DNA of 45,413 nucleotides. Source: Bacteroidota bacterium. Lineage in GTDB: Bacteria; Bacteroidota; Bacteroidia; Chitinophagales; Chitinophagaceae. The notes below the pieces were generated by a model. The model ran no database searches, was not told where the DNA came from, and saw only the letters and a program-made list of their open reading frames with translations. The DNA lies in contig JABDBX010000007.1 in NCBI GenBank assembly GCA_013288445.1, forward strand, positions 1 through 45,413, in the 5' to 3' direction. Of the stretch, positions 32,835 to 34,506 are shown one piece after another. The translations under genes and the position numbers were made by a program. Position 1 is the stretch's first letter. Each line of letters begins with the position of its first letter.

Positions 32835-33092
32835 TACCTCTTCCCAGGGCATACGCATTAAAATTTATAAACCCGAAGGGTTGATATTATTATAGCAGAT
32901 GGGTAAAAACGCCGATAAACCCTGAAAAGGTGATATTATTTTCATATGCTTCGACGAATAATGCCTCACCCTTTCAGGGTTCTTCGGCAATTTGATAGAT
33001 CATTCTATAATAATATCAACCCTTCGGGTTTACTATTACCACTGAATCAATTGAATTCTGGCATTTTAATGCGTGTGCCCTGTACCTCTTCC
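32835..33092. mobile_element. MITE-like element with 20-bp TIRs and 10-bp direct repeats
   Basis: TACCTCTTCC occurs at 32835-32844 and 33083-33092. Directly inside lie 20-bp terminal inverted repeats (32845-32864 and 33063-33082, 19/20 matching), giving a 238-bp element. Inside are perfect 28-bp inverted arms (32868-32895 and 33005-33032) and an inner 23-bp pair (32911-32933 and 32966-32988, 20/23). The element has no transposase and no coding potential that I can support. The rest of the 439-bp gap holds the rhlE promoter region. Confidence 0.8.
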
Positions 33093-33123
33093 CGCATAAA
33101 ACGCACTATTCACTTATATTCCG

Positions 33124-33131
33124 TACATTTG
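33124..33131 (+). promoter_or_regulatory. -7 box (TACATTTG) for rhlE
   Basis: Full TAnnTTTG match about 115 nt before the rhlE ATG, implying a long 5' leader. No good -33 box was found. The MITE-like element ends 31 nt upstream of this box. Confidence 0.45.
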
Positions 33132-33246
33132 CACTTTAACGCGTGTTTCCAACCTTTTAAAACAGCTTGTGATACACACCTTTTCGCTCCCCAATGCATT
33201 GGGACAAGGTACAGGCAGTTACATTTTTAATCTTTAATACCAACGA

Positions 33247-34506
33247 ATGAAATTTAATGAGTTAAATCTCATAGCCCCGATATTACAGGCGCTAGAGACA
33301 GAGGGATATTCACAACCTACCCCCATCCAGGAACAATCCATACCCATATTGCTGCAACGTAAAGACCTTCTGGGCTGTGCGCAAACAGGTACCGGAAAAA
33401 CGGCAGCATTTGCTATTCCTATATTGCAGATACTGCACGAAGAACATGCCGAGCGTACCCACAAGAACATAAAGACGCTGATACTTACACCAACCCGCGA
33501 ACTGGCTATACAGATAGGCGAAAGTTTTGCAGCCTATGGCCGCAACCTGCGCATAAGGCATACCGTTATTTTTGGCGGTGTACCGCAGGGCGCACAGGTG
33601 CAGGCGCTCAACAGGGGCATTGATGTGCTTATAGCTACGCCGGGCCGCCTGCTGGATCTTATGAACCAGGGCTACATAAACCTCTCAAACATCAGCATTT
33701 TTGTGCTGGATGAGGCCGACCGTATGCTGGACATGGGTTTTATACATGATGTAAAGAGGGTAGTAGCTAAGCTGCCGCTAAAAAGGCAAACACTGTTCTT
33801 TAGCGCCACAATGCCGCCAGAGATACAGAAACTTGCCAACACCATTCTTTCAAACCCCGAGATGGTAGCCGTAACACCGCCTGCCACTACCGCAGAACTT
33901 GTAGAACAATCGGTTTATTTTGTGGGCCAGAAAGACAAGCGCCAGTTGCTGCACTATGTGCTGCAAGACAAGTCCATAAAGACCGCTTTGGTATTCACCC
34001 GCACCAAGCATGGCGCAGATAAGGTGGTAAAAGACCTGCATAAGGTGGACATTACCGCGGAAGCCATACATGGCAACAAAAGCCAGAACGCACGCCAGCG
34101 TGCATTGAGCAACTTTAAGGATGGCCGTATTCGTGTACTCGTAGCCACCGACATTGCCGCCAGGGGCATAGACGTGGACCTGCTAAGCCATGTAATAAAC
34201 TATGAGATTCCAGAAGTGCCAGAAACCTATGTGCACCGTATTGGCCGCACAGGTCGTGCAGGAGCCAGCGGTATTGCCACGTCGTTTTGCGATGAAGAAG
34301 AAATGCAGGACTGGAGGAATATTCTAAAGCTAATAGGCCAGAAAATAAGAGTAGTAGAAGGTCATCCTTTCCCTGCTCCAGCATCCGGGCAGGTGCAGAT
34401 AAACCTACCGAAGAATAAAGAAGTAGTGCGCAGGCCAAATGCGGTTGCAGGCTTTAATTCGAGCAACAAACGCCGGTTTAGTAACAGCGGCGGAAGAGCG
34501 AGATAA
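33247..34506 (+). CDS. rhlE: RhlE-type DEAD-box ATP-dependent RNA helicase
   Basis: This 419-residue protein has the Q motif ([11 protein letters not shown]28), Walker A QTGTGKT (K51), [16 protein letters not shown] (155-158), SAT (186-188), and motif [13 protein letters not shown] short basic C-terminal tail ([14 protein letters not shown]) is typical of RhlE and may bind RNA. It unwinds short RNA duplexes in ribosome assembly or RNA decay. A hairpin terminator follows, shared with the convergent small secreted-protein gene. Confidence 0.93.

Follow-up and report, generated by a model that had tools for sequence, protein, structure and literature searches.

A 238-bp MITE-like element of a Chitinophagaceae genome with ISAs1-type ends and an interior of REP doublets of the kind that flanks Y1 transposase genes

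A chimeric MITE is proposed for the 238-bp, gene-less element at positions 32845-33082 of the window (the whole 45,413-nucleotide stretch analysed here, contig JABDBX010000007.1 of the MAG GCA_013288445.1, hereafter the home MAG), upstream of an RNA-helicase gene. It is highly probable that the element has the ends of an ISAs1-family IS, by which it would be moved in trans, and that its interior is a unit of REP doublets linked to a Y1/HuH transposase, which was enclosed by these ends and then spread. The sequence data behind this reading comprise copies, ends, target duplications, a matching IS, doublets flanking Y1 genes, arm covariation and enclosures by IS4-type ends, from which we infer that the element is mobile.

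The layout of the element (Table 1) agrees with the original prediction, which had called for an identical flanking repeat (TACCTCTTCC, 10/10), 20-bp terminal inverted repeats (19/20, at the positions predicted) and a perfect 28-bp inverted pair, here formed by the two outer arms. The inner imperfect pair that it named fits both a 28-nt pair of 82% identity (32906-32933 / 32966-32993) and a 23-nt pair of 78% identity (32918-32940 / 33009-33031). The outer left REP is composed of a small palindrome, AAACCCGAAGGGTT (32869-32882), and then a tail, GATATTATTATAG. As a single strand, the element folds at -67.7 kcal/mol (DNA) and -112.8 kcal/mol (RNA), with z = -13.7 for DNA and RNA alike and 0 of 200 shuffles as good, and its layout is far beyond chance. 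An RNA gene was considered and rejected: the Rfam search returned three sub-threshold miRNA matches only, on the minus strand, with none above the gathering score. A plasmid or phage origin was likewise set aside, the 258-bp query having no blastn match at E 1e-5 among 72,556 plasmid and 50,697 phage records.

Table 1. Positions of the element, its parts and its neighbours in the window, and of the matching IS elsewhere in the home MAG.
Feature	Position	Strand	Remarks
Left target-site duplication copy, TACCTCTTCC	32835..32844	+	Direct repeat, 10/10 against right copy
Left terminal inverted repeat, ISAs1 type, CAGGGCATACGCATTAAAAT	32845..32864	+	Same ends on contig C17 ISAs1-family IS
Outer left REP, long arm of outer hairpin	32868..32895	+	Similar units beside Y1 genes in three other species
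Inner left REP, AACCCTGAAAAGGTGATATTATT	32918..32940	+	Second palindrome of left doublet
Inner right REP, inverted	32957..32981	-	
Outer right REP, inverted	33005..33032	-	Perfect complement of outer left arm
Right terminal inverted repeat, ISAs1 type	33063..33082	-	20 bp, 19/20 against left end
Right target-site duplication copy, TACCTCTTCC	33083..33092	+	Direct repeat, 10/10
Promoter-box fit to TAnnTTTG, TACATTTG	33124..33131	+	Within stretch conserved upstream of rhlE orthologues
RhlE-type DEAD-box RNA helicase	33247..34506	+	Downstream neighbour
ISAs1-family IS, 1270 bp	Contig C17, 16270-17539		CAGGGCATACGCATTAAAAT / CAGGGCATACGCATTAA at both ends; 372-aa ORF

The home MAG (3.05 Mb, 215 contigs, 65% complete) holds the element at 15 places, 14 besides the window; a second genomic copy, the absence of which had been named beforehand as evidence against the prediction, was thus found. 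Since the palindrome is matched on both strands, these places appear as 28 match rows. The best of the other copies reach up to 87% identity across the whole element, and the copy on contig C79 is a 48-base piece only. Two of the 14 places are within a 359-bp inverted stretch common to both ends of contig C173, and may represent one copy assembled twice, which would leave 13 further places. In contigs C139 (L048) and C173 (L011, L012), the sequence at one end recurs exactly, in inverted form, at the other end of the same contig (2273 bp and 359 bp, respectively), possibly as an assembly artefact; in C139, ISAs1-type ends are located close to both contig ends. The end pattern CAGGGCANACGCATTAA (up to 2 mismatches) has 18 matches in the home MAG, and its reversed control has none.

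Target duplications were scored on 15 elements with fitted ends (10 from the home MAG, 5 from other species). Duplications of 10/10 flank three home-MAG elements (window, C85 and C2), with 9/10 for the C123 element and 7/10 for a second copy on C2; a duplication of at least 7/10 is therefore present in 5 of the 15 elements, compared with 0.4% expected from random pairs, and a 10/10 match arose in 1 of 20,000 draws of random 10-mer pairs. All of these belong to the seven home-MAG copies with both ends, five of which have a duplication (three at 10/10, one at 9/10, one at 7/10). The in-register duplication is 6/10 or less in the other ten elements, including all five from other species; one of the ten, on C77, gives 7/10 with a one-base shift.

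The 20-bp ends recur on an IS of the home MAG (contig C17; Table 1), the 372-aa ORF of which is identified as an ISAs1-family transposase (NF033564, 409 bits, cut-off 70; also PF13808 and PF01609) and is the sole match in this MAG. The original prediction had suggested looking for an IS with matching ends, and its claim that no transposase is present stands for the element itself, not for the MAG as a whole. Several copies, common ends, 10-bp duplications and this matching IS bear out the predicted non-autonomous MITE with a target-site duplication. A recognisable target duplication was looked for around the C17 IS and not found. ISAs1 transposase matches occur in 4 of the 35 genomes of the genus: the home MAG, G008, G001 and, as a weak match, G031. 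The ISAs1 IS of G008 is 1404 bp long and encodes a transposase 63% identical to that of C17; its ends are CAGGGCAAACGCAT, and the target duplication AATATTGTTC matches at 10/10. Target duplications of the ISAs1 family are 8-10 bp. G001 has 27 end patterns, of which 7 adjoin ISAs1 transposase fragments (7 fragments); in this genome no core was found by model R1, and one single-arm match by similarity search. The 20-bp ends can thus be assigned to ISAs1 by similarity, as in one case (G008) can the 10-bp duplication, and the C17 IS is a candidate transposase source for the ends of the element. The element resembles these ISAs1-family IS in its ends (CAGGGCA.ACGCAT) and, for the G008 copy, in the 10-bp duplication, but it lacks a transposase gene and measures 238 bp rather than 1270 or 1404 bp.

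Similarity to the element is found in 16 of 60 genomes (home MAG included), often covering the inner part but not the ends; in G001, most of it covers only the end. With PF01797 (Y1 family), a search of 35 genomes identified a Y1 gene beside element-like matches in G013, and in G013, G024 and G008 a 153-aa Y1 gene has a doublet on both sides (the right-hand doublet of L161 was identified by eye). Each doublet consists of a small palindrome (e.g., AATCCCGAAGGGAT) with a tail ending ATTATTATAG, then a spacing of approximately 22 bases and a second palindrome (e.g., AACCCCGAAGGGGT). The core of the window element (32868-33032) is two such doublets face to face, with no gene between them. Another MAG (L310) supplies a fourth Y1 gene, 71% identical, with such an arm flanking it on one side. 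By eye, the part common to the interior and the C17 IS is only the terminal ~20 bp. Because its inner palindromes match doublets of the Y1/HuH-flanking kind and are not part of the IS, the element is to all appearance a chimera, with an interior other than an IS remnant. The two Y1 genes of the home MAG (C37 and C61) were rejected as the source of the window doublet family: window-type arms were not found in the stretches around either gene, and C61 has a family of its own. A cognate Y1 gene for the window doublet family was not found in the home MAG, at 65% completeness. In G013 (C9), G024 (C1) and G008 (C236), the doublet-flanked Y1 gene is near a dihydroorotase gene (best models so named; partial ORFs, below cut-off), which suggests that the Y1 gene was inherited vertically rather than recently moved.

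The Y1 protein of G013 (153 aa) has the motifs DHIH, WQ and YILNQEEHH. TnpA-Y1 subclass 1.2 is characterized by DH[IV]H, WQ and Y---Q--HH, a length of ~148 aa, and occurrence in Cyanobacteria and Bacteroidetes (PMC6006769, Table 1); by motif signature, G013-type Y1 genes would therefore be subclass-1.2-like. The Y---Q--HH motif is present in 38 of 40 Y1 loci. Three Y1 proteins pass the IS200/IS605 model NF033573 (63-67, cut-off 55) and score 19-28 bits with the REP transposase model NF047646, below its cut-off of 80. Two flanks were too short to score; among the 38 loci scored, 27 are flanked by inverted repeats with a score exceeding the maximum of 29 rhlE controls (these all represent a single orthologous gene and are therefore not independent of one another), and none of 84 pairs of stretches from elsewhere in the Y1 loci reaches that score. 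The other 11 loci, including home-MAG C61 and L310, do not exceed the control maximum; the C61 Y1 gene has a nested palindrome on one side only. The tail ends in TAG in 15 of 21 Y1 loci inspected (e.g., TTTGTAG, GTTTATAG, ATTATAG). The subclass listing of PMC6006769 gives 'no' for REP under subclass 1.2, described there as generally without IS200-type terminal structures, whereas flanking inverted repeats characterize 27 of the 38 Y1 loci here.

From these parts, a sequence of events can be proposed. The interior would be a separate mobile unit, in which two inverted REP doublets serve a subclass-1.2-like Y1/HuH transposase that would cut the palindromes. ISAs1 ends would have come to surround a master palindrome unit in an ancestor that several species of the genus share; enclosure would have come first, followed by spread as one piece, with the ISAs1 transposase moving the 238-bp element in trans and leaving the 10-bp target duplication.

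Doublets also occur within ends of another type. In G008, elements of 121-123 bp contain one doublet of the window family within CAATGTCATTGACTTAAG-type ends; six such elements have duplications of 10/10 (C79, C200 and C119) or 7/10 (C386, C326 and C319), and the C79 and C326 elements do not differ across 123 bases, suggesting recent movement. A 1465-bp IS of G008 with CAATGTCATTGACTTAAG-type ends, lacking a target duplication, encodes an IS4-family transposase (NF033592, 158 bits, cut-off 115). Other G008 elements with IS4-type ends are 77-78 bp long or have another repeat array instead of the doublet; one of 223 bp (L358, G008:C93:3277-3499) contains a tandem array of another palindromic repeat (GCCCTGAAGGGGC ... 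GATGGGCAACGCCCATC). In the home MAG, a second nested palindrome family is located just upstream of the C61 Y1 gene (L155:785-965 = C61:1484-1664), the product of which is 57% identical to the G013 Y1 protein, and is dispersed in the MAG (49 match rows; 20 further stretches inspected). Six of 17 single doublets of this family lie between two CAATGTCATTAAGTTAAG-type (IS4-type) ends (13 or more of 18 positions; shuffled 99% = 12), with duplications of 10/10 in one, 9/9 in two, 8 of 9 in one and none in two (a 9/9 duplication arises by chance in 7 of 5000). For five nested pairs of the same family, only 1 of 10 outer sides reaches 13 of 18. Two doublet families within two kinds of DDE ends point to at least two, and probably three, separate enclosures. 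Many of the duplications of IS4-type elements resemble palindromes (CCTACAGGG, CCCTGTAGG, CCCATTCGGG and CCCTTCAGGG; home-MAG L414, L426 and L428, and G008 C119, L247), and others (CGGTGTGAAG and CCATCCGGGT) do not; it is as if IS4-type IS preferred REP-type palindromes as a target, which could be a route of doublet enclosure.

The arms of the core are kept paired across genomes. In an alignment of 28 cores, 93.8% of cells are paired, and both sides have changed in 14 of 46 pairs, against a shuffle mean of 6.3 (0 of 500 shuffles reach 14; related rows inflate this control) and 2-6 for slid-structure controls. The arms of the core thus covary, which is compatible with enzyme recognition, selection on structure and palindrome correction alike. 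Arm and spacer identities are 0.90 and 0.71 in the seven home-MAG copies with both ends, 0.81 and 0.53 in five other home-MAG copies, and 0.88 and 0.45 in both groups of G003/G023 cores (6 with an end, 10 without); the spacer identity expected from composition, without any lift from alignment, is 0.29. These values would fit a home-MAG population that spread recently by means of its ends, and one in G003/G023 that is older and under constraint in the arms. For classification of the ends, 66 loci were entered, 36 with a paired core were kept and 30 were dropped, and an ISAs1 end was called above the 99% null (1 of 72 control sides). Cores with both, one and no ISAs1 end number 7, 3 and 2 of 12 in the home MAG; 2, 3 and 7 of 12 in G003; 1, 0 and 8 of 9 in G023; 1, 1 and 0 of 2 in G004 and G015 together; and 0, 1 and 0 of 1 in G008. 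Residual end similarity was detected in 6 of 15 end-less flanks (p < 0.025, better of two orientations; ~0.75 expected by chance). Free-standing cores may exist; whether all end-less cores are decayed composites is undecided. In a named genome collection, 85 stretches contain the arm motif; three MAGs (CANGSR01, CAISOH01 and CAIWHI01) account for 54 of the 80 stretches listed, and the others include Dyadobacter, Bacteroidales and Ignavibacteriales.

In the window, the element is situated between an ORF without a Pfam match (end 32807) and rhlE. The Bacteroidota -7 box has the consensus TAnnTTTG. As predicted, the element lies upstream of the putative rhlE promoter box, with 31 bases separating the right duplication from it. 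The element is absent upstream of all 29 close rhlE orthologues compared, each from a different one of the 34 other genomes of the genus (420 bases compared in each, except 403 and 387 in two), where there is one 16-base, chance-like match. The right flank aligns in 21 of the 29 upstream stretches (E 1e-3 or better; up to 88.6%), the alignments beginning at ~33098-33119 in the best cases. An exact empty site was sought in these 29 regions and not found, because the left flank is not shared and could not be aligned. The rhlE leader (33132-33246; GCGTGTTTCCAACC ... GCTTGTGATACACACC ... GGCAGTT) is conserved before the start codon across many species (L361-L381) and may be a structured regulatory leader; an Rfam search of it gave no match.

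Three other explanations were weighed. The ends, copies and duplications are as in an ordinary MITE, and the element might be a plain ISAs1 MITE with an interior of decayed, incidentally palindromic IS sequence and no second transposase involved. This is already largely contradicted, and we regard it as very improbable: beyond the terminal ~20 bp the interior has, by eye, nothing in common with the C17 IS, the inner units are also found beside Y1 genes, inside other ends and without detectable ends, and compensatory change keeps the arms paired. Conversely, the nested palindrome could be the real mobile unit, REPIN-like and moved by Y1, with the ISAs1-like ends incidental or a rare hitch-hiker. 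The doublets flanking Y1 genes would suit such a unit, as would the 15 of 21 scored G003/G023 cores with no ISAs1 end on either side and the better conservation of arms than of spacers in those genomes (0.88 vs. 0.45; 0.29 expected). In the home MAG, however, both ends are present in 7 of 12 scored cores, with duplications directly beyond the ends in 5 of the 7; these duplications are explained by a DDE event on the outer ends and not by a Y1 event; we give this explanation a small chance.

A functional RNA or DNA structure (e.g., a bidirectional terminator or insulator), selected upstream of rhlE and other genes and owing only its origin to transposition, would account for the strong fold, for arms conserved with compensatory change, and for the terminator-like hairpins (3 vs. 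0.6 expected). Against this, promoter-like sites are close to expectation (2 vs. 1.7), no Rfam family scores above the gathering score, the element is missing upstream of 29 of 29 rhlE orthologues and is present at many places, and enzyme recognition or palindrome correction would likewise produce the covariation of the arms; we find this explanation hardly credible.

The proposed composite, a Y1-linked interior within ISAs1 ends, resembles several known systems in part. It has in common with MITEs that it is short and gene-less, with inverted ends shared with a complete IS, a duplication of fixed length and several copies; it differs in that the interior is a palindrome unit of a kind belonging to a second, unrelated transposase type. 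As in REPINs and BIMEs, small palindromes occur in inverted pairs that are dispersed and are also found beside a Y1 gene (PMC3116915; PMC6006769), but here two palindromes make up a doublet, and the unit pairs two such doublets in inverted orientation between DDE ends. The core has the two inverted, dispersed REPs of a REPIN, and a cognate Y1 gene with the same repeats in G013, G024 and G008. For REP and REPIN palindromes, the tetranucleotide GT[AG]G is described at the 5' foot (PMC6006769); in the window family this foot is missing, and the tail that follows the palindrome ends in ATAG instead. The nearest published idea is that of TIRtrons (TIRYT; PMC3733652), in which a tyrosine transposase lies between inverted repeats that in some cases belong to dispersed repeat families. 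The Y1 genes between inverted repeats resemble these; the TIRtron description in PMC3733652, as far as it is drawn on here, does not place repeats of this sort within the ends of DDE transposons. In the portion of the open-access literature that was searched, no account was found of REP or REPIN units enclosed by IS-type ends. MITEs as a kind are known, and the chimeric interior sets this element apart.

A broader reading is offered tentatively, as a possibility that we hold with some doubt: doublets of subclass-1.2-like Y1 genes may be a preferred interior of DDE-type MITEs, enclosed separately by ISAs1- and IS4-type ends in two families, either because the palindrome helps to join the ends of a very short element (123-238 bp, approximately the length at which DNA is stiff) or because the element would have two engines. 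If so, an orphan Y1 subclass would gain its substrate. The element combines marks of two unrelated chemistries, double-strand DDE and single-strand HuH, within ~240 gene-less bp, and such combinations arose more than once in the genus. For a Y1 subclass that PMC6006769 lists without REPs, it also provides candidate substrates of defined sequence and position, so that activity can be tested directly. For the annotation of Bacteroidota genomes, intergenic nested palindromes may be MITE cargo rather than RNA genes.
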